The notes below the pieces were generated by a model. That model searched no databases, was not told the origin of the DNA, and was given only the letters and a program-made list of their open reading frames with translations. DNA of 33,325 nt from an uncultured Bacilli bacterium (lineage in GTDB: Bacteria; Bacillota_I; Bacilli_A; RF39; UBA660). The translations under genes were made by a program, and so were the position numbers. Position 1 is the stretch's first letter; every line of letters starts with the position of its first letter. Shown here in pieces: positions 5,412-19,039 of the stretch. Location: contig CASTSB010000003.1 in the NCBI GenBank assembly GCA_949451605.1, positions 1-33,325 of the forward strand, read 5' to 3'.

Positions 5412-5450
5412 GATTGCAGCTAAAAAAACGCTTCTTTTATTTGTAGGATA

Positions 5451-5459
5451 TGTTATAAT
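5451..5459 (+). promoter_or_regulatory. Extended -10 promoter of the adh-FIST-aldh operon
   Basis: Perfect TGTTATAAT. The -35 region is weak (CTTCTT at 17-bp spacing). The predicted start near 5466 gives a leader of about 17-20 nt with AGGGAGG at 5472-5478. Confidence 0.7.
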
Positions 5460-5482
5460 GATTTATAGAATAGGGAGGCTAG

Positions 5483-6637
5483 ATGATGATAAATAGAGTT
5501 GTTTTAAATGAAACTTCTTATTTTGGTCGTGGAGCAAGAAAAAATCTTGCTACTGAAATCAAAGCTAGAGGTTTCCACAAAGTACTTCTTGTTACAGATA
5601 AGACTTTGTTAGAGTCTAAAACAGTAGATATGATTACAAGAGTGCTTGAGCATAATATTATAGGATATTATTTATTTGACGGTATCAAGCCAAATCCTAC
5701 AGTAAAAAATGTTCAAGATGGATTATTAATGGCTAATATTAATAATGTAGATTGTATAGTTGCAGTAGGTGGAGGTAGCGTAATTGATACAGCAAAAGCA
5801 ATTTCAATTATAATGACTAATCCAGAATATAATGATGTAGTTAGTCTTGATGGAGTTGCTGAAACTAAAAATAAAGGACTACCTTTAATTGCTATACCAA
5901 CAACATCAGGTACAGCAGCAGAAGTAACAATTAATTATGTAATTACTGATGAAGTAAATACTAAAAAGATGGTATGTGTTGATGTACATGATATACCAGT
6001 TGTTGCAATAATAGACCCAGATTTAATGGATGGAATGCCACAATTTTTAGCAGCGTCTACTGGAATGGATGCTCTAACTCATGCTATGGAAGGTTATATT
6101 ACAAAAGCAGGATGGTTAATACCTGATATTTTCCATGTAAATGCAATGGCTTTAATTTACAAAAATTTAGAAAAAGCTGCCAATGAAAAAGATAAAGTAG
6201 CAATTGAAAAAATGGCTTATGCACAATATATAGCTGGTATGGGATTTTCAAATGTTGGACTTGGAATAGTACATTCGATGGCTCATTCTCTTGGAGCATA
6301 TTTTGATATTCCACATGGAGTAGCAAATGCGCTATTACTACCACATATAATGAAATTTAATGGAGATTCTTGTCCTGAATTATTTAGAAATATGGCAAAT
6401 GCTTTTGGACTAAACACAAATGGAAAAAATGATAATGAAGTTATAGATTTAGTTGTTGATGCTATTAAAAAATTATCAGAAAATCTTGGAATACCACAAC
6501 ATTTAAAAGATTTAGGTATACCACAAGAAATGATACCAACGCTTGCTAGTCAGGCTATTAATGATGTATGTACACCTGGAAACCCAAAAGATGTTACAGT
6601 AGATGATATTATAGCATTATATAAAGAAGCTTATTAA
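5483..6637 (+). CDS. Iron-type (group III) alcohol dehydrogenase
   Basis: This NAD(P)-dependent dehydrogenase belongs to the Fe-ADH family (FucO, DhaT, YugJ-like) and interconverts an aldehyde and a primary alcohol. The 384-residue length matches. The nucleotide-binding GGGSVIDTAKAI and the PTTSGTAAEVT segment are present. The metal ligands fit D196, H200, H264 (or the neighbouring H268) and H278 in MDALTHAMEG, VHSMAHSLG and IPHGVAN. Two adjacent ATGs are possible: 5483 is 4 nt and 5486 is 7 nt from the AGGGAGG site, so 5486 may be the true start. It is first in an operon with a FIST protein and an aldehyde dehydrogenase. The substrate is not determined by sequence; lactaldehyde, butanal and 3-hydroxypropanal all fit the family. 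Confidence 0.93.
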   Translation: MMINRVVLNETSYFGRGARKNLATEIKARGFHKVLLVTDKTLLESKTVDMITRVLEHNIIGYYLFDGIKPNPTVKNVQDGLLMANINNVDCIVAVGGGSVIDTAKAISIIMTNPEYNDVVSLDGVAETKNKGLPLIAIPTTSGTAAEVTINYVITDEVNTKKMVCVDVHDIPVVAIIDPDLMDGMPQFLAASTGMDALTHAMEGYITKAGWLIPDIFHVNAMALIYKNLEKAANEKDKVAIEKMAYAQYIAGMGFSNVGLGIVHSMAHSLGAYFDIPHGVANALLLPHIMKFNGDSCPELFRNMANAFGLNTNGKNDNEVIDLVVDAIKKLSENLGIPQHLKDLGIPQEMIPTLASQAINDVCTPGNPKDVTVDDIIALYKEAY

Positions 6638-6655
6638 AAAGAAAAGAGGTAAAAA

Positions 6656-7843
6656 ATGTTAAAAGCAAAAGTAGGACATAGTATTGAAAAAGATAGTTAT
6701 AACGCAGGACTTGAAACAGCAAAACAAGCAATCGAAGGAATGCAAAATAATAAATTAGGATTTCTTTATACATCAGTAAAAAATGATATTAAAGAGGTTG
6801 TAAAAGGAGCAAAAAGCATAATGAATGCTCCAATAATTGGATGTACAAGTAGTGGAGCAATTATGACTCCTGAAGGAATCATTACATCAGAAAATGGTTT
6901 TGCTGGAATGATGGCCTTTGATGACCCTGATATGGTTGTTGGGGTTGCTTGTCATGAATCAGGCAAAGATGCTAGAGCAATCGGAAGAAAAGTTGCAATA
7001 GAAGCAGTTGAAAATGCAAAAACAACAAGAGCTCCAGGATACTTCTATATGGTAGCAAGCCCAAAAGAGGAAGAAGAATACCTAATGGGAATTCAAGATG
7101 TAATAGGTAGAGTTCCTATGTTTGGTGGAAGTGCTGCAGATGATACAGTAGAAGGAAATTGGAAAATAATTTGTAATGATAAGGTATTTACAGACGGAGT
7201 AGCAGTTGCATTCTTTTATACAGATAATGAAATTGCAACTTCATTTACTGGGGCTTATAACGAAACCAACAATGTAGGAATTATTACTGAAGTTAAAAAT
7301 GACCGTACTTTAGTAACAATTGATGGAATATCTGCCTTAAAAAAATACGCTCAATGGACAAATGTAAAACCAGAAAGTTTAAAAGGTCAAAATCTTTTAG
7401 CAGCTTCTATTACCAAACCATTAGGAGTTAAGGATCCACTTGGAAATCTTACAGTAATTCGTCATCCAATGTTTGGAAACGATGAAGGAACAAGAACAAC
7501 TTCCGATGATACAATTACATTAGGGAATAAGGCTGTTCCAGGAACTGCTATTATTCAATTAGAAGCAACTGTTGATGAATTAATAGATTCAACTGGATCA
7601 ACATTAAAAGATGTTAGAAGACAATTGTATAATGAACCTGCTGCATATGTTTTAGTTCATTGTGGAGGAAGAAAACTAGGTGTTGGAGATAGAATAGAAG
7701 AAGTTCACAAGCAATTAGTAAAAGAAGCAAAAGGAATTCCATTTATAACAGTATTTACATTTGGAGAATATGGATATGATGAACATTCATCTAATATTTG
7801 TGGAGGATTAATGTTATCATTCACAGCTTTCGGTAAAAATTAG
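6656..7843 (+). CDS. FIST-domain protein (FIST_N plus FIST_C)
   Basis: A cytoplasmic protein of 395 residues consisting of a FIST N-terminal domain (about 25-230; IIGCTSSGAIMTPEG, FGGSAADDTVEGNW) and a FIST C-terminal domain (about 230-380; NEPAAYVLVHCGGRK, ITVFTFGEYG). FIST domains are thought to be sensory and to bind small ligands such as amino acids or related metabolites. No kinase, cyclase, methyl-accepting or DNA-binding output domain is attached, and no membrane segment is seen. The gene sits 18 bp after the alcohol dehydrogenase and 8 bp before the aldehyde dehydrogenase, each with a ribosome-binding site (AAGAGG here). Co-expression suggests that its ligand relates to that pathway, which is my inference. 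Confidence 0.88.
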   Translation: MLKAKVGHSIEKDSYNAGLETAKQAIEGMQNNKLGFLYTSVKNDIKEVVKGAKSIMNAPIIGCTSSGAIMTPEGIITSENGFAGMMAFDDPDMVVGVACHESGKDARAIGRKVAIEAVENAKTTRAPGYFYMVASPKEEEEYLMGIQDVIGRVPMFGGSAADDTVEGNWKIICNDKVFTDGVAVAFFYTDNEIATSFTGAYNETNNVGIITEVKNDRTLVTIDGISALKKYAQWTNVKPESLKGQNLLAASITKPLGVKDPLGNLTVIRHPMFGNDEGTRTTSDDTITLGNKAVPGTAIIQLEATVDELIDSTGSTLKDVRRQLYNEPAAYVLVHCGGRKLGVGDRIEEVHKQLVKEAKGIPFITVFTFGEYGYDEHSSNICGGLMLSFTAFGKN

Positions 7844-7851
7844 GAGGCAAA

Positions 7852-9288
7852 ATGAGAAATTTAGTAAATGGAAAAGAATTAGATTCTAGTGATGGACAAG
7901 CAATAGAAGTAAGAAATCCAGCAAATAATCAGTTAATTGCAACAGTCCCAAATTCAACAGAAGAAGATGTTGACTATTGTGTAAAATGTGCCAAAGAAGC
8001 TCAAAAAAAATGGGAAGAAACTCCTCTATATGAAAGAGGAAGAATATTAGAAAAATTTGTTGATTTAGTAGAACGTGATGCAGAAACTCTAGCAATGACT
8101 CTTTGCCGTGAAACAGGTAAACCAATAAAAGAAGCCAGGGCGGAGATTGCAAACACAAGAACTTTTGTTACAGCTTATGTGGAAAAAGCAAAACATTTAT
8201 ATGGAATTAATATTCCAGTAGGAAATGAACCGGGACAAGAAGCAACTGTTCAGTTTACAATAAGACAGCCTATAGGAGTTGTAGCTTGCATAATTCCATT
8301 TAATTTTCCTTGTGATTTATTTGGACAAAAAGTACCAAGTGCACTTATAATGGGAAATTCTGTAATCGTTAAGCCATCAACTTATAATCCTTTAACACTT
8401 CATAAATATTGCCTTTTAATGAAAGAAGCGGGAGTTCCAGATGGTGTAATAAACTGTTTATCAGGAAATGGTCCTGTAGTAGGGCAAGCCCTAGCTAGAC
8501 ATAAAGGAGTCCACTTAGTTAGTTTAACTGGCTCAACTGCAGTTGGAATGGAAACAATGGCAACTGCGTCTAAAAACTTAACTCACATTATGCTAGAGTT
8601 AGGAGGAAATGATGCCTTCATTTTAGATAAAGATGGAGATATAGATTTAGCTGTTGAAGAAATGGTTTGGGGAAGACTATATAATACAGGTCAAGTATGC
8701 TGTGCTAGTAAAAGATTTTTAGTACATAATGATATAAAAGATATTTTTACTAACAAAGTAATCGCAAGAATAAGTAAAATGCGAGTAGGAGATCCTATGA
8801 ATGAAAGTACTGAAATTGGTTGTCTTATTAATGAAAAAGCCGCGTTAAGAGTTGAAGAACAAGTATTAAAAACATTACAAGAAGGTGCAAGAATTGCTTT
8901 TGGTGGAAGAAGAAATGGAGCATATTTTGAACCAACAGTTTTAATAAATGTTACTAAAGACATGGAAGTAATGAAAGATATGGAAATTTTTGGTCCAGTT
9001 ATACCAATCTGTGGATTTGATACTATTGAAGAAGCAATAGAAATTGCTAATCAATCTAGCTTTGGTCTTTGTGGTAATATAATAACAAAAGATATTAATA
9101 ATGCATTTAAAGTTGCATCAAAACTAGAAGTAGGTGGAGCAATCATAAATGGAGCAAGTTTTTATAGATCAGCGGAAATGCCTTTTGGAGGTTGGAAACA
9201 TTCTGGAATTGGTAATGAAGGAATTTCCACAACCCTAGAAGAAATGTCAAGAATAAAAACAATTGTCTTAAAAAATGTTTTAAAATAA
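7852..9288 (+). CDS. NAD(P)-dependent aldehyde dehydrogenase
   Basis: This is an aldehyde dehydrogenase superfamily enzyme of 478 residues, which oxidises an aldehyde to a carboxylic acid. Catalytic features are the nucleophile C283 in GQVCCASKR, the general base E249 in LELGGND, the cofactor segment PFNFPCD...KPSTYNPL and the SLTGSTAVG turn. The C-terminal EMPFGGWKHSGIGNEG is typical of the succinate-semialdehyde, lactaldehyde and glycolaldehyde branch, but the substrate cannot be fixed from sequence. The TAGGAGG ribosome-binding site overlaps the TAG stop of the FIST gene. As the last gene of the operon, it ends in a terminator whose 5' arm begins in its stop codon. Confidence 0.95.
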   Translation: MRNLVNGKELDSSDGQAIEVRNPANNQLIATVPNSTEEDVDYCVKCAKEAQKKWEETPLYERGRILEKFVDLVERDAETLAMTLCRETGKPIKEARAEIANTRTFVTAYVEKAKHLYGINIPVGNEPGQEATVQFTIRQPIGVVACIIPFNFPCDLFGQKVPSALIMGNSVIVKPSTYNPLTLHKYCLLMKEAGVPDGVINCLSGNGPVVGQALARHKGVHLVSLTGSTAVGMETMATASKNLTHIMLELGGNDAFILDKDGDIDLAVEEMVWGRLYNTGQVCCASKRFLVHNDIKDIFTNKVIARISKMRVGDPMNESTEIGCLINEKAALRVEEQVLKTLQEGARIAFGGRRNGAYFEPTVLINVTKDMEVMKDMEIFGPVIPICGFDTIEEAIEIANQSSFGLCGNIITKDINNAFKVASKLEVGGAIINGASFYRSAEMPFGGWKHSGIGNEGISTTLEEMSRIKTIVLKNVLK

Positions 9289-9317
9289 AGATATTGAATT
9301 TATCAGTATCTTTTTTT
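9287..9317 (+). terminator. Terminator overlapping the aldehyde dehydrogenase stop
   Basis: Ten-base arms (9287-9296 and 9304-9313) pair with one U-G wobble around a seven-base loop, followed by seven T. The first two stem bases are the last two bases of the TAA stop. Confidence 0.82.
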
Positions 9318-9355
9318 ATTTTTATAAACTATTAAAAGTTTTAAATGATTTATTG

Positions 9356-9361
9356 TATAAT
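9356..9361 (+). promoter_or_regulatory. Relic -10 element of the pseudogene
   Basis: TATAAT followed by ATGCA, aligned with the identical TATAATATGCA (9916-9926) of the intact paralogue. The -35 region is degraded (TTAAAA with an 18-bp spacer instead of TTGAAA with 17). Confidence 0.5.
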
Positions 9362-9389
9362 ATGCAGATGAAAATAGAGAATTATTAAT

Positions 9390-9855
9390 ATGAAAAAAGC
9401 TAAAAAATATAATAACTTTAATGATTATCTTAGTATTTTTTTAATTTTAACAGGTATTTATTTAGGATTATCTTAACTAAAAAAAGAAGAAATCATAGAA
9501 ATTATACCTTATGTTTTTTTAGATTATAATAAAGAAAAATTTAGATAGTAGTTATAATAATGGTTTAATAACTTTAATTGTTAACGAGCACAAAAAGAAA
9601 TTTTTTAAAGGAATAACTGCTCATTCAACAAGTACAGTAGATTGGATTGATAAAAATAATTCAGGAGAAGATGAAAAAACATTATATCCAAATAATGAAT
9701 CTAGTTCAAATAATAATTCTAATAATCCAATTATAGTAGATGCTTCAAATACCGGAGTAAATGCTCCAATTATAATTAAAATAATTGGAGAATTAATAGC
9801 TACTTTTGGAGTGTTATATATTTATAAATCATTTAAACCTACAAAAAATAAGTAA
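9390..9855 (+). pseudogene. Decayed, internally deleted copy of the downstream wall-anchored protein gene
   Basis: This is the 466-bp remainder of a paralogue of the gene at 9951-13910. The 5' end aligns with that gene's start (ATGAAAAA...TTTAATGATTATCTTA, then ...CCTTATG...TTAGATTATAAT), but frameshifts and stops occur at about 9415-9480 and near 9541. A second open part (9541-9852) encodes YNNGLITLIV and KGITAHSTST, matching the NPCBM start of the intact protein. It then jumps straight to VDWIDKNNSGE, which matches residues about 1186-1197, and ends with an anchor-like ASNTGVN, a hydrophobic helix and a lysine-rich tail. About 3.2 kb of coding sequence is missing, plus a smaller gap of about 90 bp. 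The second frame has no usable start codon. It retains a promoter relic and a terminator-like hairpin. Confidence 0.85.
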
Positions 9856-9861
9856 TTTTAT

Positions 9862-9890
9862 AAGTCAATTGCGAAAATGATTGATTTTTT
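9862..9890 (+). terminator. Probable terminator after the pseudogene
   Basis: Eight-base arms AAGTCAAT (9862-9869) and ATTGATTT (9880-9887) pair with one G-U around a ten-base loop, and a T-run reaches 9890. It is weak but followed within three bases by the -35 of the next gene. Confidence 0.5.
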
Positions 9891-9892
9891 AC

Positions 9893-9921
9893 TTGAAAAA
9901 AATAATTTTTTGGTGTATAAT
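9893..9921 (+). promoter_or_regulatory. Promoter of the large wall-anchored protein gene
   Basis: TTGAAA (9893-9898), a 17-bp spacer and TATAAT (9916-9921). The leader is about 23 nt and contains AGGGAG at 9934-9939. Confidence 0.75.
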
Positions 9922-9950
9922 ATGCAAACAAAAAGGGAGATTTGGTGGAT

Positions 9951-12900
9951 ATGAAAAATTCTAAAAAACTAGTTATTATTTTAATGATTATCTTAGGGCT
10001 TTCATCAATCTTGGCAGGTGTATATCTTCAATTTGCATCTTTAAATAAACAAGAATTTGTTGAAAGCAAACCTTATGGTTATTTGGATTATAATACTGAA
10101 AAATTTAGGTATTTATCCGATATTGACTATATTAAAGAACAATCTAAAGTAGCTTGGGGTAGTATCTTATTAGACAAAGTAGCAGAGGAACAATATAACA
10201 ATGGCCTTATCACGTTAATCGTAGATGGAAAGAAAACTTCATTTATTAAAGGTGTTTTTGCTCATGCAACTTCAACTCTTGTCTATGATATTTCATCATA
10301 TGATTATGATTATTTTACATCATATTTAGGAGTCGATGAAAGTCGTGGAAATATTGGTAATGGTGTTAAGTTTTCAATTTATACTTCTACTGATGGAGAA
10401 AACTGGGATTTAAAAACAGCTGCTCAACCACCTGTTTTAAAAGGTAATAGTGAAGCATTATCAGTAAAAATAGATATAAAAGGTGCAAAATACTTAAAAT
10501 TATATGCTCATAATAATGGTAATGAATCATCAGACCATGCTGTTTATGCTAATGCAAAATTAATTAAAGAAGATTATGTTGAAGATAATTCAAATGTCGA
10601 CTTCATCAAAACTATTGAACAATATGATTCTCTTTTAGCTAATACTAATGTAGAAGACGCTCTAATTTCATCTGAATTAGTTGTACTTCAAAGAGAGTTT
10701 GTAAGAAACATTGGCTATGATATATTACAATCATTTGTAAGATATAATGATAGCAATAAAGAAGCTATTTCTTGGTTAATGAATGATTTGAAAAACCTTA
10801 AATTGTATATAACTGGAGGAGCACCAGAAGGTAGTTACATGAATTCAATTAAAGTCTTAGCAGAGCTACATAAAAATTACAAAGAAGATTTTAACAATAC
10901 AGAAGTAACCAAATATGGAACTGTCTTAGGAGATTTATATACAAGAATGGCTATTTCTTTATCTCTTACACACTCTAAATTAGTTGGTCTATGGATGCAA
11001 TCAAGCCAACCTGAAAACCAATCAAATGCTGTTGTAAGATATGCAATTTATAAACAAATGCATGCTGATGGTCATTTTGTTGTAACTGACTCAATTGATA
11101 TTACAAAATGGTTTGAAAACTATTCAATTGAAGAAATGCGTTTTGTCATGAATAACAATATTGATGATGAAGAAATATTATGGTTAAATGAATATACTCA
11201 AAGCTTTGTGGACAAATATCCAACTCAAGCTTGGAAATATTTAACGCCACATCCATATATGGCCTATGTTTGGCCTAACTATTCAAGACCAGAATTTCAT
11301 GATCCAGAAAGAAAAGATTATTGGGATCAAAAATTCAACGGAATATTTAGTAAATATAATGTAACTTATCGTAATGGTTTATATAAAGTATGGATGAATT
11401 TTAGAAATGAATTTGGAACAGGTGCAGTATGTGGTGGTATTTCCAAAACAGGATCTAATATTAGAGGTGTACATGCTATTCCATCAGCTGTTATTGGTCA
11501 ACCAGGACATGCAGCAATTATTTACTATAACCAAGATGCTCAAGGAAGAGGATATTGGGGAATTGATAATGACGTAAGTGGATGGACTTTATCTGAAAAA
11601 GGTGAAAGAATGCTTTTAGGATGGGGAAATGCTAGTTACGCTAAAGGTTCTTATCAAGTTGTTTACATGGCTTTAGCTCAAGAAGTTTTAAATAACTTAG
11701 AAACATATGAAAAAAGTAAAGAGTATGTAGTTTTAGCTCAAGCTTATGGAAATGATTTAGCAAAACAAGAAGCTGCTTATAGAAAAGCCTTAGAAATTCA
11801 ACCATTAAATATAGATGCATGGTATGGATTAATTAATAACTTTAATGCTAATGATACAAAAACAGAAGATGATTATTATGCATTAGTTGAAGAATTAGCA
11901 ACAAATTTAAAATACTTCCCATTACCAATGTATCACTTATCTAATTTAATAAAACCAAAATTAGTAAGTCCTATAAATTCATATAAATTTATGTTATTAC
12001 AAAATAGAATTTTAAAAGAAGGAACTGCTGTACCAAATAATACTGCAGAAAACTATTATGTAATGCAACCATCATTAACAAGACTAGAAGCAAACTTCTT
12101 GTTAGGAAAAATTGATAATTCTATTGCAAAATTCTCTTTTGACGGAGACGATGCTGGTAAAATAGTATTATCTAATCGTTTTGACGGAAACGGAGTACGT
12201 TGGGATTATAGTTTAGATGGTAAAGAAAACTGGAAAGAAGTATCTTTTACAGCAGAAGAAGAACATAAATTACAATTAACAGAAGAAGAATTAGATAGCA
12301 TTTCAGCAGATAATGATATTTATATACATATTGTTGGTGTAAATTATGATGAACAAAACTTATATAAAATAGATATTTTACCTTCTAATACTCCTACTAA
12401 TCTTTATAATAATGATTTAGAAAATAAGGTAATAGGTGCAACCGATGTAATGCAATGGAGAATTATTGAAACAACAAGAGCAAAAGCAAAATCTAGTGCC
12501 AAATCTTCAAATACATGGACTTATTTTAGAGATAGTTTACCAGATTTAACTGGAGATAAGACAGTAGAAGTAAGATATGGAAGACATGGATTATATTTAG
12601 AAAGTGAATCATTAACTTTTGAATTTACTAAAGATACTATTGATGAGACTAAAAAATATATTCCAATTGAACACTTAGCGATAGAAGGTTACTCAACTCA
12701 ATCTAAAGATGGTAAAAGACCTTACTATGCACCAAACGCAATAGATGGTAATGCTAATACATTATGGCATACAGACTTTAGCCAAAATGTTTTAGACCAA
12801 GATATAAAACCATTTTTAACAATAAAGTTAGATGAACCTAAAAACATTTCAGAGGTACAATTATTACCAAAGAAATATAAGACTAATGATCCATGTGATA

Positions 12901-13910
12901 TCAAAAATACTACAGTCTATGTAAGTACAGATGGTACAAATTGGATACAAGTAGGTAAAGTAGAAAATTTAGCTCAAAACGAAGATCTTAAAACAGTAAC
13001 TTTAGATAAAATTGTTAAAGGTCAATATGTCAAGCTAGAATTTGATACTTACAATATGTTTGCTGCAGTAGCAATGATTAATCTATTCGAAGATACTACT
13101 AGAAAAGATTTTCAAGCAGAAATTACTTACTCTATAAATGAATTAACTAATCAAGATGTAATCGCAACTTTAAAAGTTCCAGAAGGAATAACTATTACTA
13201 ATAATGATGGTAATAATACCTTTAGATTTACATCAAATGGAGTATTTGCCTTTGAATTTATAGATGAAAATCAAAATACAGGAACAGCTTTGGCTACAGT
13301 TAATTGGATAGATAAAGTTGCTCCTACTGCCAATGTCTCTTACAATATTACTGAAAAAACTGATCAGGATGTTGTAGCGACTTTAACAGGTGAATCAGAA
13401 CAAATCGTAGTATTAAATAATAATCAACAAAGAACTTATACATTTACAGAAAATGGAACATTTGAATTTGAAATTGGAGATGCTGCTGGTAATACAAATA
13501 AAGTAGTGGCAACTGTAGATTGGATTGAAAAAAATAATTCAGGAGACAATGAAAATCCAGGTGATAATAACAACCCAGGAGACAATGAGAATCCAGGTGA
13601 TAATAACAATCTAGGAGACAACGAAAACCCAGGAGACAATAATAATCCAGGAGACAATAATAATCCAGGAGACAATAATAATCCAGGAGACAACGAAAAC
13701 CAAGGTGATAATAACAACCCAGGAGCAAATGAAAACCCATCTACTCCAAATACCGATTCTAATACAAATGATGATTACAATAATCCATTTATAGTAGATG
13801 TTCCAAATACAGGAGTAAATGATACAGTTATTAAAATTTTTGGAGCATTAACAATTATCATAGGTGGTTTATATATTTATAATTCATCTAGAATAGCAAA
13901 ACTTAAATAA
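9951..13910 (+). CDS. Large multidomain cell-wall-anchored protein (NPCBM, Cys-His-Asp domain, F5/8C, Ig-like, VPNTG)
   Basis: A secreted, sortase-anchored protein of 1319 residues. Order seen: signal anchor (7-28); NPCBM-like carbohydrate-binding domain (about 66-207, FAHATSTLVYDIS and KYLKLYAHNNG); a helical region; a predicted transglutaminase/papain-like catalytic domain with Cys494 (GAVCGGIS), His520 (QPGHAA) and Asp539 (WGIDND); a TPR-like helix pair (about 600-635); an F5/8 type C (discoidin) domain (about 904-1048); two Ig-like repeats (about 1053-1123 and 1124-1194); eleven GDNxNP units (1198-1263); and VPNTG (1284-1288), a hydrophobic helix and a lysine-rich tail. The ATG at 9951 is preferred over TTG 9942 and GTG 9945, which crowd the AGGGAG site. 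Glycan binding and wall attachment are well supported. Enzymatic activity is inferred from motif order only. A decayed copy lies just upstream. Confidence 0.85.
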   Translation: MKNSKKLVIILMIILGLSSILAGVYLQFASLNKQEFVESKPYGYLDYNTEKFRYLSDIDYIKEQSKVAWGSILLDKVAEEQYNNGLITLIVDGKKTSFIKGVFAHATSTLVYDISSYDYDYFTSYLGVDESRGNIGNGVKFSIYTSTDGENWDLKTAAQPPVLKGNSEALSVKIDIKGAKYLKLYAHNNGNESSDHAVYANAKLIKEDYVEDNSNVDFIKTIEQYDSLLANTNVEDALISSELVVLQREFVRNIGYDILQSFVRYNDSNKEAISWLMNDLKNLKLYITGGAPEGSYMNSIKVLAELHKNYKEDFNNTEVTKYGTVLGDLYTRMAISLSLTHSKLVGLWMQSSQPENQSNAVVRYAIYKQMHADGHFVVTDSIDITKWFENYSIEEMRFVMNNNIDDEEILWLNEYTQSFVDKYPTQAWKYLTPHPYMAYVWPNYSRPEFHDPERKDYWDQKFNGIFSKYNVTYRNGLYKVWMNFRNEFGTGAVCGGISKTGSNIRGVHAIPSAVIGQPGHAAIIYYNQDAQGRGYWGIDNDVSGWTLSEKGERMLLGWGNASYAKGSYQVVYMALAQEVLNNLETYEKSKEYVVLAQAYGNDLAKQEAAYRKALEIQPLNIDAWYGLINNFNANDTKTEDDYYALVEELATNLKYFPLPMYHLSNLIKPKLVSPINSYKFMLLQNRILKEGTAVPNNTAENYYVMQPSLTRLEANFLLGKIDNSIAKFSFDGDDAGKIVLSNRFDGNGVRWDYSLDGKENWKEVSFTAEEEHKLQLTEEELDSISADNDIYIHIVGVNYDEQNLYKIDILPSNTPTNLYNNDLENKVIGATDVMQWRIIETTRAKAKSSAKSSNTWTYFRDSLPDLTGDKTVEVRYGRHGLYLESESLTFEFTKDTIDETKKYIPIEHLAIEGYSTQSKDGKRPYYAPNAIDGNANTLWHTDFSQNVLDQDIKPFLTIKLDEPKNISEVQLLPKKYKTNDPCDIKNTTVYVSTDGTNWIQVGKVENLAQNEDLKTVTLDKIVKGQYVKLEFDTYNMFAAVAMINLFEDTTRKDFQAEITYSINELTNQDVIATLKVPEGITITNNDGNNTFRFTSNGVFAFEFIDENQNTGTALATVNWIDKVAPTANVSYNITEKTDQDVVATLTGESEQIVVLNNNQQRTYTFTENGTFEFEIGDAAGNTNKVVATVDWIEKNNSGDNENPGDNNNPGDNENPGDNNNLGDNENPGDNNNPGDNNNPGDNNNPGDNENQGDNNNPGANENPSTPNTDSNTNDDYNNPFIVDVPNTGVNDTVIKIFGALTIIIGGLYIYNSSRIAKLK
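13542..13739 (+). repeat. Eleven tandem 18-bp units encoding GDN(E/N)NP
   Basis: Contiguous, spacer-free 18-bp units, each encoding Gly-Asp-Asn-(Glu/Asn)-Asn-Pro with minor variants (GDNNNL, GDNENQ, GANENP). Units in the middle (13632-13685) are nearly identical, which suggests recent slippage. It forms a flexible acidic stalk between the Ig-like repeats and the wall anchor. Confidence 0.92.
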
Positions 13911-13939
13911 AAATATTGCTTTTAAGCAATATTTTTTTT
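13911..13939. terminator. Bidirectional terminator between convergent genes
   Basis: Stem AAATATTGC (13911-13919) / GCAATATTT (13926-13934), loop TTTTAA, T-run to 13939 on the plus strand and a T-rich tract on the minus strand. It directly follows the plus-strand stop, and its loop holds the stop codon of the minus-strand permease gene. Confidence 0.8.
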
Positions 13940-14722
13940 GAAATGTTTTTCTAGTAATTCGACTAAAAAATACATTATATATGATAATAAACATAATATA
14001 AAGACACTAGTAATAACTAAATCTATATGAAACACAGAAGAACCATACATAATTAGATAGCCTAATCCAATTTTTGAAACTAATAATTCACCCATTACAA
14101 CACCAATATAATCCATTGAAATGTTTACTTTTAATGCACTAATTATATTACTTATATTACTTGGGATAACAACTTTAAAAAATACTTTAAGTCTGTTAGC
14201 TCCAAAACTCTTTAAAAGAATTATATATTTATTATCTGTACTAGAAAATCCACTATAGATATTAATTGTAGTAACAAATATACTAATTAATAACCCCATT
14301 AAAATTATAGACTTCGAACCAGATCCTGCCCAAATTATAATTAGTGGACCAAGTGCAACTTTGGGTAGCGAATTTAAAACTGTAAGATAAGGATCAATAA
14401 TTTTAGAAAAAGTTGGGACAATCCACATTAGAGTAGCAATAAGCATACTAAGTGTAAATGAAACAATAAATGTTATAAATATTTCATATAGAGTAATACC
14501 TATATGATTAAATAAAGAGCCATCTTTTATTAATGAAATAGTAGTATTTATAATTTCTGATGGACAAGAAGTAAGAAAAGTATTAATTAATTTATATTTT
14601 GCAAATATTTCCCAGCCGACTAAAAATATTAGTAAAATGGCTATTCTTGATATATTTACAATAAGCTTATTCTTTTTAAATTTTTTTAAAAACAATTTAT
14701 GCTCATCACTATATGTTGACAT
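13922..14722 (-). CDS. ABC transporter permease (SsuC/TauC/ThiX type)
   Basis: An inner-membrane permease of the BPD_transp_1 family, 266 residues with about six hydrophobic segments. The EAA-like cytoplasmic loop (LLKSFGANRLKVFFKVVIPSNISNIISALK) is the ATPase contact. The sequence is of the type found in importers of sulfonates, taurine, nitrate and thiamine precursors. The start is placed at 14722 (MSTYSDEH), because a GGAGGG site precedes it and the longer reading frame (to 14791) lies entirely within the ATPase gene. It overlaps the ATPase gene by 14 bp. Its TAA lies in the loop of the bidirectional terminator. Confidence 0.9.
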   Translation of the reverse strand: MSTYSDEHKLFLKKFKKNKLIVNISRIAILLIFLVGWEIFAKYKLINTFLTSCPSEIINTTISLIKDGSLFNHIGITLYEIFITFIVSFTLSMLIATLMWIVPTFSKIIDPYLTVLNSLPKVALGPLIIIWAGSGSKSIILMGLLISIFVTTINIYSGFSSTDNKYIILLKSFGANRLKVFFKVVIPSNISNIISALKVNISMDYIGVVMGELLVSKIGLGYLIMYGSSVFHIDLVITSVFILCLLSYIMYFLVELLEKHFKKNIA

Positions 14723-15464
14723 CCAAGTCCCTCCATATTTCAGCTTGATATTTAGAAAACATTTTATCTTTTCTTCTTTCTTTGGGATCATTTACTCCAT
14801 TAAAATCAACTTCATAATTCTTTTTAACTGTTCCTGGTCTTTTAGTTAAAACAACTATTCTATCAGAAGTACTTAGAGCTTCTCCTAAATCATGAGTTAC
14901 CATAATAGCTGTTTTTCCCTCATTTTTTATAATTTGAAAAATGTCATTCCCAATAGATAATCTAGTTTGAGAGTCTAGGGCAGATAAGGGCTCGTCTAGT
15001 AATAAAATGTCAGGTTTTAAAGCAAGTGTTCTAATTAGTGCAACTCTTTGTCTCATTCCACCTGATAAATTATTTGGATACTTATCAATAAATTCCTCTA
15101 GTCCATATTTCTTTAAAAGTTCGATAACATAAGCTTTACTTTCTTCGGTTAATTCTTTTTTTACTTCTAAGCCAACTAAACAATTATCAAGTATTGTTTT
15201 CCATGGAAACAAACTATCAGTTTGAAGCATATATCCAATACTTAAAGTATCATCATATAACAATTCTCCAGAATATTCTTTATCTATTCCTGCAAGTATT
15301 GAAAGAATTGTTGACTTTCCACAGCCACTTGGACCAACTATCGATACAAATTCTTTATCAAAAACATCTAAATTTATATTTTCTATAGCTAGTAATTCAC
15401 CATTTAAATCATGATAGATTTTATTCAAATTTTTAATAGATAAAATAACTTTATTTTTGGACAT
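14709..15464 (-). CDS. ABC transporter ATP-binding protein (SsuB/TauB type)
   Basis: The cytoplasmic ATPase of the importer, 251 residues. Walker A is GPSGCGKST (44-52), the Q-loop is MLQTDSLFPWKT, the signature is LSGGMRQR (133-140), Walker B is LLLDEP followed by the D-loop SALD, and the H-loop is VTHDLGEA. This pattern (Q..LFPW, GGMRQR, VTHD..EA) is characteristic of the nitrate/sulfonate/taurine ATPase group. It overlaps the binding-protein gene by 14 bp and the permease gene by another 14 bp. No clear Shine-Dalgarno site precedes its ATG, so translation is probably coupled to the upstream gene. Confidence 0.95.
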   Translation of the reverse strand: MSKNKVILSIKNLNKIYHDLNGELLAIENINLDVFDKEFVSIVGPSGCGKSTILSILAGIDKEYSGELLYDDTLSIGYMLQTDSLFPWKTILDNCLVGLEVKKELTEESKAYVIELLKKYGLEEFIDKYPNNLSGGMRQRVALIRTLALKPDILLLDEPLSALDSQTRLSIGNDIFQIIKNEGKTAIMVTHDLGEALSTSDRIVVLTKRPGTVKKNYEVDFNGVNDPKERRKDKMFSKYQAEIWRDLDVNI

Positions 15465-16446
15465 ATATTAATTTATCATAGCTAACTTTTTTATCTATGA
15501 TTCCATAATCAAGCATTATATCTTGTAAATGATCAAATGATTCTTTTGTAAAACTAGTAGATTTAGGCCAAGCTTCTATTTTTCTATAATTTTTAACTGA
15601 CTTTTCAATACTTTTTAAAGATGTATCAGGAAATTGATTTAAGATAACCTTTGCAACTTCCTTATCGCTATGGTTTTCTACATAATCTAATCCTTTTTGG
15701 ATAGCTCTTGTAAAAGCAGCAATAGTTTCTTTATTCTTCTCAATATAACTAGATTTAGCTGAATATGAAGTATATGGAACAACACCACCTAATTCACCTA
15801 AAGATGCAACTACATATCCATAACCTTGTTCTTCTACTTCACTAGCAGTAGGTTCAAACAATGTAACAAAATCTCCATTACCACCTATAAATGATCCGCT
15901 CATAGCTGCAAAAGCTACACTAGTATCAATTTCAATTTTACTTATATCTATATTATTAGATTTAATAATATACTCAAGAGTCATTTCAGGCATACCACCG
16001 GCACGACCACCAATGATTTTTTTATCAATTAAATCATCTAATTTGAAATTATCGATTTTTTCTCTTGAAACTATAAAAGTACCATCCTTTTGTGTTAATT
16101 GTGCAAAAGTTTTTAAATAATCTTTTTCGCCACCATTATAGACATAAATAGTAGCTTCACTTCCAGAAAAACCAATATCAGCATCTCCTGATAAAACAGC
16201 AGCACTAACTTTATCTGCACCATTAGATAAAATTAATTCAATATCAAGACCTTCTTCCTTAAAGAATCCTTTTTCTATAGCAACATATTGTGGAGCATAA
16301 AAAATAGTATGAGCAACTTCAGAAACTTTTACTTTAGTTAATTTTTTTGTTTCTTTCTTTTCTGGCTTATTTAAATTAAATAATACGCTACAAGCACAGA
16401 CAAAAATTATAAAACAAAAAACAAAATAACTTATGAATTTTTTCAA
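15451..16446 (-). CDS. NMT1/THI5-like substrate-binding lipoprotein
   Basis: The extracytoplasmic solute-binding protein of the importer, 331 residues, with a signal peptide and a lipobox-like VCAC whose C19 would be lipidated. The family pattern is clear: YAPQYVAIEKGFFKEEGLD, SGDADIGFSGSEA, GGRAGGMPE and a FEPTASEVEEQGYGY hinge region. Family members bind thiamine pyrimidine precursors, riboflavin, sulfonates, nitrate or similar small molecules, and I cannot choose among them. The start codon is TTG, preceded at 7 nt by AAGGAGG. It is the first gene of the operon, divergent from the phosphodiesterase gene. No riboswitch fits in the 70-bp gap. Confidence 0.9.
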   Translation of the reverse strand: MKKFISYFVFCFIIFVCACSVLFNLNKPEKKETKKLTKVKVSEVAHTIFYAPQYVAIEKGFFKEEGLDIELILSNGADKVSAAVLSGDADIGFSGSEATIYVYNGGEKDYLKTFAQLTQKDGTFIVSREKIDNFKLDDLIDKKIIGGRAGGMPEMTLEYIIKSNNIDISKIEIDTSVAFAAMSGSFIGGNGDFVTLFEPTASEVEEQGYGYVVASLGELGGVVPYTSYSAKSSYIEKNKETIAAFTRAIQKGLDYVENHSDKEVAKVILNQFPDTSLKSIEKSVKNYRKIEAWPKSTSFTKESFDHLQDIMLDYGIIDKKVSYDKLIYVQK

Positions 16447-16468
16447 ATAAATTCCTCCTTTTCAAAGT

Positions 16469-16474
16469 ATTATA
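16469..16474 (-). promoter_or_regulatory. -10 element for the ABC transporter operon
   Basis: TATAAT on the minus strand, about 22 bp upstream of the TTG start. It lacks TG extension and a good -35. It lies within 20 bp of the divergent plus-strand -10, so the two promoters overlap. Confidence 0.5.
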
Positions 16475-16491
16475 TGAATACTAAAAAAATA

Positions 16492-16500
16492 TGTTATACT
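16492..16500 (+). promoter_or_regulatory. Extended -10 promoter of the phosphodiesterase gene
   Basis: TGTTATACT. The predicted start near 16507 lies inside the GGGTG site, leaving a leader of only about 9-10 nt before the ATG at 16516. Confidence 0.6.
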
Positions 16501-16515
16501 TATATGGGTGATAAA

Positions 16516-17052
16516 ATGAAATTATTATTTATATCTGATATTCATGGTATTAAAACAAATTTAGAGAAGATTAAAGAAAGCTTTCAAAAATTAGATTGTG
16601 ATAAATTAGTAGTATTAGGTGATTTATTTTATATTGGTCCAAAAAATAAAATGCATGAAGATTATGATATTGATTATGTGAAAAATTTCTTGAATAGTTT
16701 TAAAAATAAAATAATATGTATTAAAGGAAACTGCGATTCAGAAGTTGACGGATTAGTATGTGAATTTCCAATAGTAAGTGAACTTGGAATAATATCAACT
16801 ATAAATGAAGATATTTATTTAACACATGGTCACATTTATAATGAGAGTAATTGGAATAGAAGTAATACAATCTTAGTTTATGGTCATTTCCATACACCAT
16901 TTATTAAAAATATTGAAACTAATACTTATATAAATCCAGGATCAATCTCGCTTCCAAAAGAAGGTTATTTGCCATCATATTTGTATTATGATGAAAAAGA
17001 ATTTGTAATTTATGATATTAATGATAATGTTATTGCTAAGAAAGTATTATAA
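16516..17052 (+). CDS. YfcE/MJ0936-type metallophosphoesterase
   Basis: A calcineurin-like phosphodiesterase of 178 residues with all family metal ligands visible: D8 and H10 (SDIHG), D36 (LGDLF), N72 (GNCD), H104 (THGH) and H124/H126 (YGHFH). Relatives hydrolyse phosphodiester model substrates; the physiological substrate is unknown. A longer in-frame start at 16474 would place the promoter inside the gene and has no ribosome-binding site, so I use the ATG at 16516 after GGGTG. It is a single gene divergent from the ABC importer. No terminator is evident after it. Confidence 0.9.
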   Translation: MKLLFISDIHGIKTNLEKIKESFQKLDCDKLVVLGDLFYIGPKNKMHEDYDIDYVKNFLNSFKNKIICIKGNCDSEVDGLVCEFPIVSELGIISTINEDIYLTHGHIYNESNWNRSNTILVYGHFHTPFIKNIETNTYINPGSISLPKEGYLPSYLYYDEKEFVIYDINDNVIAKKVL

Positions 17053-17076
17053 TTAGATAATTACTGACTATAAAAC

Positions 17077-17105
17077 TTGCTTTATTGACTAAGTTATGGT
17101 ATAAT
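17077..17105 (+). promoter_or_regulatory. Promoter of the thioester adhesin-sortase operon
   Basis: TTGCTT (17077-17082), a 17-bp spacer and TATAAT (17100-17105) preceded by TGG, i.e. a full extended -10. The leader is about 25 nt, with GGGGGAG at 17124-17130. Confidence 0.75.
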
Positions 17106-17136
17106 AAGACCAATTATTGTTTAGGGGGAGATGCAA

Positions 17137-18399
17137 ATGTATAAACTTATTGAAAAAACAAAAAAACTTATGATAATCTTACTTGTTGCAGCTATAGCTT
17201 TTACTGTAACAACAGCTAATACTAATGCCATTGCAAATAGTATTACTATAGGAGATGCAGAAGATATTCCAGCATACATTGGAGGAGTTACTTTTGCAAC
17301 TAAAACTACAACTGATGGTAAATATTTATATTGTCTTGAAATGACTAAAAAGACAACTATGAATACCGTTGCAACTTTAAAAGGTGAAAGAGATGCAGGT
17401 ATTGCCTATATAATTTCAAATGGTTATCCAAATAAGAGCTTTACAGGAGATAGATTAAAAGACTACTATATAACACAAACAGCTATTTGGTGGTATTTAG
17501 ATGAAACTACTGGAACTATGAATTTAGGCGAGCAATTTAAATCAGAAGGTTCTGATCCACATAACATGAGACAATATGTAAAAGACTTAGTAGATGCTGG
17601 ATTAAAAGCAAATAGTGAAGGTTATAAAAAAATAACTATAGCAGCAAATACTAATGATACAAGATTAAAACTTGATGGAGAATATTATTCTTCAAGTATG
17701 ATTGAAGTTTCAACTAATGCTGATACCTATACAGTTTCATTAGAAGGAGCACCAGAAAATACTAAAGTGTTCCAAGCTTCATCAAATGAAGAAAAAACAA
17801 CTCTTTCTAAAGGTGAAAACTTTATTATTAAAGTTCCAGCAAATGGAATTAAAGAAAAAGACCTAAGCTTTAAAGTAAATATAACTGCTAATGGAGTAGT
17901 TTACAAGGCTTATGAATATAAACCAGAAAATGAAAACATGCAAGCTGTAGGTACAGTAGAACCATCAGAGGAAAAAGTAACTACTTCATTAGATTTAGGA
18001 GTTGTAACTTCAAAAGTAACAATTATTAAGTATGATTCAGCTACTAATCAAATTCTTGCAGGAGCTAAATTAGTTCTAAAAGATTCTGATGGAAACGAAG
18101 TTACTAACTGGATTTCAACTACTAATGCACATGTAATTAGAAACTTATCAAATGGGGAATATACAGTATCAGAATTAGCTGCTCCAAATGGATATAAATT
18201 AAGTAATGAAGTAGTAAAATTTACAATTAATGAAAAATCAGATGACATTTTAGTAAAATTCTACAATCAACCAGAAGATAAAACTATAATTGATATTCCA
18301 GATACTTCAACAAGTAGTTTATTGTTCTTTATATTAGGAATGACTATAATTGGTTCAGGTTTAGGATTCGTTTACAAAAATGCAAAGTCAGCAAAATAA
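17137..18399 (+). CDS. Thioester-domain (TED) adhesin with CnaB domain and sortase signal
   Basis: A secreted surface adhesin of 420 residues. It has a signal peptide (about 1-30) and a thioester domain in which Cys66 (YLYCLEM) and Gln114 (ITQTAIWW, the TQxA(I/V)W hallmark) are predicted to form an internal Cys-Gln thioester that can bond covalently to host amines. A middle domain (about 190-285) is followed by a CnaB-type domain with Lys298, Glu346 (SELAAPNGY) and Asn377 (FYNQP), the expected isopeptide triad. The sorting signal is IPDTS (387-391) with a hydrophobic helix and basic tail. ATG 17137 is preferred to 17131, which abuts the GGGGGAG site. The next gene is a sortase overlapping by 20 bp, probably dedicated to this protein. 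Confidence 0.9.
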   Translation: MYKLIEKTKKLMIILLVAAIAFTVTTANTNAIANSITIGDAEDIPAYIGGVTFATKTTTDGKYLYCLEMTKKTTMNTVATLKGERDAGIAYIISNGYPNKSFTGDRLKDYYITQTAIWWYLDETTGTMNLGEQFKSEGSDPHNMRQYVKDLVDAGLKANSEGYKKITIAANTNDTRLKLDGEYYSSSMIEVSTNADTYTVSLEGAPENTKVFQASSNEEKTTLSKGENFIIKVPANGIKEKDLSFKVNITANGVVYKAYEYKPENENMQAVGTVEPSEEKVTTSLDLGVVTSKVTIIKYDSATNQILAGAKLVLKDSDGNEVTNWISTTNAHVIRNLSNGEYTVSELAAPNGYKLSNEVVKFTINEKSDDILVKFYNQPEDKTIIDIPDTSTSSLLFFILGMTIIGSGLGFVYKNAKSAK

Positions 18400-19039
18400 T
18401 ATAAAAAAAAGAATCTCTCCTAACTTGGCTGCCGTTATAGGCGCTCTAGTTCTTATGCTAGGAGGATTCTTTCTTTCTTATAGTTATATTCAAACAAAAA
18501 AAATAAAAACTTATGATATGATGGCCCATTATATATATAAAGAAGAAAATAATGAAGCTGTTATAGAAACAGAAGAAAAAGAAGAAAAAAAGGAAGAAAC
18601 TAAACCAGATACTAGTAATAATATTGAAGGAATAGAAACATATATTGGATATTTATCAATTCCAAAAATTAATTTTAATAAAGGATTTTTTAAACAAGAG
18701 TCAAAAGAAAACGATGTAGAAAAAAATATTTTTATAGTTAATGGATCCACTTATCCAGATGTAGATAAAGGAAACTTTATAATTGCAGGACACTCTGGAA
18801 CTGGATGGAAAGCATTCTTTAATGATTTATACAAGTTAGATAAAGGTGATAATGTAACAGTTACTTATAAGAATGTAAAATATAACTATAATATTACAAA
18901 AATATATAAACAACAAAAAACAGGTAAAATTGCAATATATAGAGATTACTCAAAAACTACACTTACATTAATAACATGTACAAATAATGAATCTACAACT
19001 CAAACAATATATATTGCGGAATTAGTTAGTAAAGAATAA
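18380..19039 (+). CDS. Sortase with an unusual active site (no Arg after the catalytic Cys)
   Basis: A membrane-anchored transpeptidase of 219 residues that would attach sorting-signal proteins to the wall. It has one transmembrane segment (16-37), an acidic linker (52-80) and the sortase barrel (about 85-217). Catalytic His138 lies in IAGHSG and Cys200 in LTLITC. The usual catalytic Arg on the last strand is not seen: the aligned segment reads TTQTIYIAEL, and no arginine occurs between Cys200 and the C-terminus. It starts inside the adhesin gene, 20 bp before that gene's stop. The ribosome-binding site is poor (AGGA, 13 nt upstream), which suggests coupling. Class is uncertain (A/D/E-like). 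Confidence 0.88.
   Translation: MQSQQNNIKKRISPNLAAVIGALVLMLGGFFLSYSYIQTKKIKTYDMMAHYIYKEENNEAVIETEEKEEKKEETKPDTSNNIEGIETYIGYLSIPKINFNKGFFKQESKENDVEKNIFIVNGSTYPDVDKGNFIIAGHSGTGWKAFFNDLYKLDKGDNVTVTYKNVKYNYNITKIYKQQKTGKIAIYRDYSKTTLTLITCTNNESTTQTIYIAELVSKE

Follow-up and report, generated by a model that had tools for sequence, protein, structure and literature searches.

A decayed tandem paralogue beside a large NPCBM surface-protein gene in an uncultured Bacilli bacterium

Disrupted and tandem gene copies in bacteria

Degraded bacterial pseudogenes are lost through deletion (Kuo and Ochman 2010, PMC2916853). The segment described here lies directly upstream of a large surface-protein gene in a stretch of 33,325 nucleotides from an uncultured Bacilli bacterium (hereafter, the window), and it resembles such decayed genes in being a disrupted copy with stops, frameshifts and a large deletion. 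Unlike them, however, it has a living paralogue as its tandem neighbour, and it resembles that paralogue more closely at its two ends than in its NPCBM part. Tandem paralogues are also known from the emm, enn and mrp genes of Group A Streptococcus, which encode sortase-anchored proteins and give rise to chimeras by recombination between neighbours (PMC6321872, PMC9993116). There, as here, the tandem paralogues have their C-terminal ends in common and differ in other parts; yet the proteins of the two systems are unrelated, one of the copies here is dead, and the present case is known from single genomes.

A third comparison is offered by msp2 of Anaplasma, where the variable part lies between conserved ends in ~100 donors (PMC2789410). 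Like these functional pseudogenes, the relic is a truncated gene copy with common ends, but it is single, its body is wholly absent and its arms have diverged. As for the intact gene, its domain content is that of surface proteins combining NPCBM and F5/8 type C domains (Pfam PF08305 and PF00754), from which it differs by a conserved core of ~700 aa that has no Pfam or NCBIfam name. Our literature search found no paper on the combination of NPCBM, sortase and surface protein.

The intact gene and the state of the relic

The intact protein comprises, in order, a signal segment, an NPCBM domain (E 3e-26), the ~700-aa conserved core, an F5/8 type C domain (E 1e-22), Ig-like repeats, a linker and an anchor. 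It carries an LPXTG-like motif (VPNTG, 13800-13814), a hydrophobic segment and a basic tail, and the 1.33-Mb genome holds five sortase matches, one near the locus and four further; members of the family are probably sortase-anchored NPCBM surface proteins. The TED/SpaA protein and sortase encoded nearby (Table 1) are possible anchoring partners. A structure model of the core (710 aa, pLDDT 88) had no Foldseek match under E 0.001, and VIA-align placed TPR-like repeats at model residues 370-513 with Z scores of up to 7.7, a range in which matches may reflect a common arrangement only. Invariant Cys and His residues in the alignment hint at a transglutaminase-like enzyme, for which a papain-like fold with Cys-His-Asp would be expected; transglutaminase matches were weak (E 0.12 and worse), and the fold search does not establish this assignment.

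Table 1. Positions of the relic, its intact neighbour and flanking features in the window
Feature	Position	Strand	Details
Aldehyde dehydrogenase, left flank	7852..9288	+	orthologues in four congeners
Relic promoter-like site	9332..9361	+	TTAAAA-18-TATAAT; consensus scan 10/12
Relic head block	9344..9549	+	promoter-like -10, leader, ATG 9390, signal segment, PY-x-x-LDYN-x-EKFR motif
110-codon open frame	9523..9855	+	stop-free 9523-9852, across NPCBM fragment and tail
Small-deletion junction	9535..9549	+	~81 bp lost relative to gene, frame changed; from alignments
Relic NPCBM fragment	9553..9639	+	YNNGLITLIVNEHKKKFFKGITAHSTSTV; nucleotide identity counts, tree and quartet tests
3.2-kb deletion junction	9634..9640	+	ACAGTAG; HSTSTV joined to VDWI
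Relic tail block	9641..9855	+	DWIDKNNSGE, shortened linker, degenerate sorting signal ASNTG (9742-9756), membrane segment, stop
Intact large surface-protein gene (3.96 kb)	9951..13910	+	start ATG 9951 likelier, matches orthologue L118
Tandem repeat array	13536..13739	+	18/36-bp units; encodes Asn/Gly/Asp/Pro linker of intact gene
ABC transporter permease, right flank	13922..14791	-	orthologues in five congeners
TED/SpaA surface protein (IPDTS tail) and sortase	17131..19039	+	3-5 kb downstream of intact gene

The original prediction held that a frameshifted remnant of this gene, retaining both of its ends, is placed in tandem directly upstream of it, and proposed a nucleotide alignment as a check. 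Both the placement and the frameshifts were borne out, and the segment 9344-9855 proved homologous to both ends of the intact gene, far above chance, with nucleotide identities of 78% (head) and 75-77% (tail). The two halves of the relic aligned to the gene ends with local scores of 118 (head) and 144 (tail), against maxima of 34 and 33 in 300 dinucleotide-preserving shuffles, which rules out chance similarity of AT-rich DNA. The homology runs collinearly over distinct segments: 9344-9549 matches 9900-10112 (157/202 identical, 77.7%), 9553-9631 matches 10194-10272 (52/79, 66%), 9632-9680 matches 13511-13559 (41/48, 85%) and 9663-9855 matches 13726-13910 (138/185, 75%), with pieces of the tail block being 75-91% identical to the gene tail. 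Missing from the relic are ~3.24 kb (10273-13510), in agreement with the internal gap of ~3.2 kb originally described, as well as ~81 bp (10113-10193) and most of the repeat array. A genome-wide search of the 22-contig draft assembly, the single genome of the species compared, recovered one copy each of the relic and of the intact gene.

The homology begins ~45 bp 5' of the relic ATG, at a promoter-like TATAAT (9356-9361, corresponding to 9916-9921 in the gene). The promoter-like site is a consensus match only; its counterpart in the gene is TTGAAA-17-TATAAT at 9893-9921. A comparison of the leaders, AAAAAGGGAGATTTGGTGGATATG in the gene and GAAAATAGAGAATTATTAATATG in the relic, indicates that the ribosome site of the relic has been weakened while the TATAAT box was kept. 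Further downstream, the head has acquired small indels, with the signal segment shifting frame twice, and stops are present in the frames other than the open one, including TAA 9474 in the frame of ATG 9390. The relic thus has no intact reading frame with a start. Its GC content is 20.3%, versus 29.5% for the intact gene.

As the original prediction stated, the NPCBM and tail portions are fused in one open frame, which spans 110 codons and crosses the junction. That this frame stays open across a deletion that is itself in frame would suit a small living gene encoding a mini surface protein, consisting of an NPCBM fragment and an anchor. We consider this very improbable: the only ATG, GTG or TTG in the frame is GTG 9811, near its end, the signal segment lies in another frame, with stops, the frame has no Pfam match, and the sorting motif has lost its proline (ASNTG in the relic versus VPNTG in the gene). 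The substitutions point the same way. Counted by codon position 1, 2 and 3, differences between relic and gene number 36/154, 30/157 and 49/157, a moderate third-position enrichment (49/157 versus 66/311, Fisher p 0.02) that comes wholly from the head and the NPCBM fragment; the tail shows no such excess (16/61, 17/62 and 14/62). This pattern fits a formerly coding gene that later drifted.

Taken together, these features make it very probable that the segment 9344-9855 is a pseudogene, an ordinary dead tandem paralogue of the NPCBM surface-protein family; this confidence covers the pseudogene reading as a whole, and the alternatives of plain duplication and gene fusion considered below contest its parentage only. 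No function is evident for the relic today. Its kept -10 box might still drive a transcript, though this would not yield a protein of the family.

The suggestion that the relic could serve as a template for new variants did not survive. On such a reading it would be a silent cassette, a gene-conversion donor for the expressed gene like the functional pseudogenes of Anaplasma msp2, and it does adjoin the gene and have both ends in common with it; moreover, two tandem paralogues in a relative, L065, show an exchange of their 3' ends. However, donors of the msp2 or vlsE type occur in several copies and carry a variable body between near-identical arms. The relic is a single copy with nothing of the body to donate, its ends are 22-25% diverged from those of the gene and marked by stops and frameshifts, and the longest exact tract that the two share is 17 bp. 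Nor was a comparable remnant found beside the gene in the searched loci of relatives, and when the relic was compared at the DNA level with relatives, the matches were short only, with no counterpart of it. Copy number, missing body and short exact tracts put the cassette out of consideration, and we regard it as very improbable.

Parentage of the relic and the route of loss

The ends and the NPCBM fragment of the relic differ in their affinities. Head and tail match the neighbouring gene only, with scores of 117 and 144, the next best scores of any relative being 44 and 36. The NPCBM fragment, on the other hand, shares 67/90 nucleotides with L067 and L125 and 66/90 with L063 and L064, as against 55/90 with the neighbour, whose own NPCBM shares 61-62/90 with its orthologues in L097 and L118. 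Four-point sums group the relic with the L067-type genes in 1977/2000 codon-bootstrap draws, in which the neighbour side was represented by the neighbour's orthologues alone, and an AU test against the grouping of relic and gene gave p = 0.036, a marginal value on 90 nt. The lineage test as a whole covers these 90 nt only and was chosen after the pattern had been seen, and no branch of the tree is strongly supported.

In a recent duplicate all segments should be closest to the neighbour, which holds for the head and the tail and, on these 90 nt, does not hold for the NPCBM fragment. The original description of the relic as a deleted copy of its neighbour is right as to the gene family and the large internal deletion, and probably too simple as to descent, because the NPCBM fragment groups with another branch. 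We lean towards a parent that was a mosaic paralogue, with the head and tail of the neighbour and an NPCBM domain of the other branch, rather than a recent copy of the neighbour. This reading is given only slightly better than an even chance, given the brevity of the segment, the post hoc choice of test and the fact that L097, an orthologue of the neighbour by its body, has some of the residues of the relic (YNNG and GISAH). Given these residues, the relic could instead keep ancestral states that the neighbour has lost.

A plain local duplication of the neighbour in this lineage, followed by decay, is accordingly a substantial though less probable alternative, in which the odd NPCBM fragment would be noise or retained ancestral sequence. 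The exclusive match of both ends to the neighbour speaks for it, as do the 90-nt span and the marginal p-value of the NPCBM tests. The four-point sums and their bootstrap do not, as they place the fragment in another branch; furthermore, a plain duplication would require that, within a conserved domain, the living gene changed faster than its dead copy, and did so in the direction of its own orthologues.

The sequence around the small deletion allows for one more origin, namely that an intergene deletion joined the head of one tandem gene to the NPCBM domain of a second, and that the fusion then decayed. The head of the relic has the PYGYLxYN motif, as do the neighbour, L118 and L058, and directly after this head comes NLDSSYNNG, which is typical of the other branch; the emm-enn fusion provides a precedent (PMC6321872). 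Nevertheless, an 81-bp deletion within one mosaic gene gives the same junction, and the tail of the relic again matches the neighbour, and we hold a fusion remnant to be unlikely.

The parent of the relic was probably a full gene, a second family member standing in tandem upstream of the survivor; deletions flanked by short direct repeats would have removed its body, and the remainder would then have drifted towards AT. At the small deletion, AAAAATTTAG is found both at 9535 in the relic and at 10099 in the gene, and since this boundary reads KFR on its left and NLD on its right, the deletion changed the frame; the repeat may have mediated the loss. At the large deletion, the gene sites matching the junction (10273-10277 and 13510-13514) both read CAACT, and the two copies are spaced by exactly 3237 bp, that is, 1079 codons. 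The left side of the junction reads ACAGTAG in L120, a relative of the other branch, as it does in the relic at 9634. The 3.2-kb loss may thus have occurred via CAACT or via an ACNGTAG repeat. As short direct repeats are common in AT-rich DNA, this route is plausible and not proven.

The locus and the family in relatives

A comparison of the locus across relatives, which the original prediction had also proposed, found the surface-protein gene absent from 5/5 congeners searched and intact paralogues in tandem in other relatives. In four of the congeners (L091-L094), an ABC-F ATPase gene separates the aldehyde dehydrogenase from the permease, where the window has the relic and the gene (9289-13921). 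For the fifth (G002), the search did not return a dehydrogenase, and other genes precede its ABC-F gene and permease. The organism's own genome has no close ABC-F orthologue, the best match being 33%. From the flanks, then, the gene and its relic occupy a site that holds something else in the congeners; the site between dehydrogenase and permease is variable. A mobile element beside the relic was considered and rejected, as no serine recombinase was found anywhere in the genome.

The family itself is patchily distributed: at a cut-off of E 1e-50, 31/193 genomes of the taxonomic family hold a member. Tandem intact paralogues occur in L065 and L119/L142. In L065 (7848-19504), the bodies of the two genes are ~36% alike at the protein level, yet their last 1.48 kb are 81% identical in nucleotides and include an exact tract of 53 bp, which makes a past exchange of ends between tandem paralogues plausible. 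The L119/L142 pair has no end sharing of this type, so the phenomenon is not universal.

The closest full-length relative of the window gene, in L118, differs markedly from it in the F5/8 type C domain: the domain of the window gene (12702-13091) is 34% identical to that of L118 and ~60% identical to those of L062, L070 and L074. The window gene itself looks mosaic by exchange of this domain. Together with the end sharing in L065, this makes an exchange of parts within the family likely in general.

The same relative, L118 (G078), carries this nearest complete orthologue along with two large serine recombinases (region 5434-17753) on a stretch of ~10.7 kb that splits a penicillin-binding protein gene in two. 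The stretch is probably a mobile element bearing a surface-protein gene, and at least one member of the family would thus be carried by such an element. A second case of a recombinase and a surface protein splitting a gene was seen in L095 (G002, 6255-10443), where an ABC transporter ATPase gene is divided into two parts by a serine recombinase together with a surface protein that contains repeats.

A broader scheme, which we put forward tentatively and deem rather less than probable, is that tandem NPCBM genes swap bodies while keeping heads and tails that are fixed and genome-specific, and that the relic is a dead product of this process, recording a second variant that was once displayed. 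The relic is in any event a real but ordinary instance of tandem-paralogue decay. It means that a family of large surface proteins with a patchy distribution once had two members in this genome, one of which has since been lost; if the parent was indeed a mosaic, the locus would be a further case, among uncultured bacteria, of evolution by shared ends and swapped bodies as known for the streptococcal M-like proteins.
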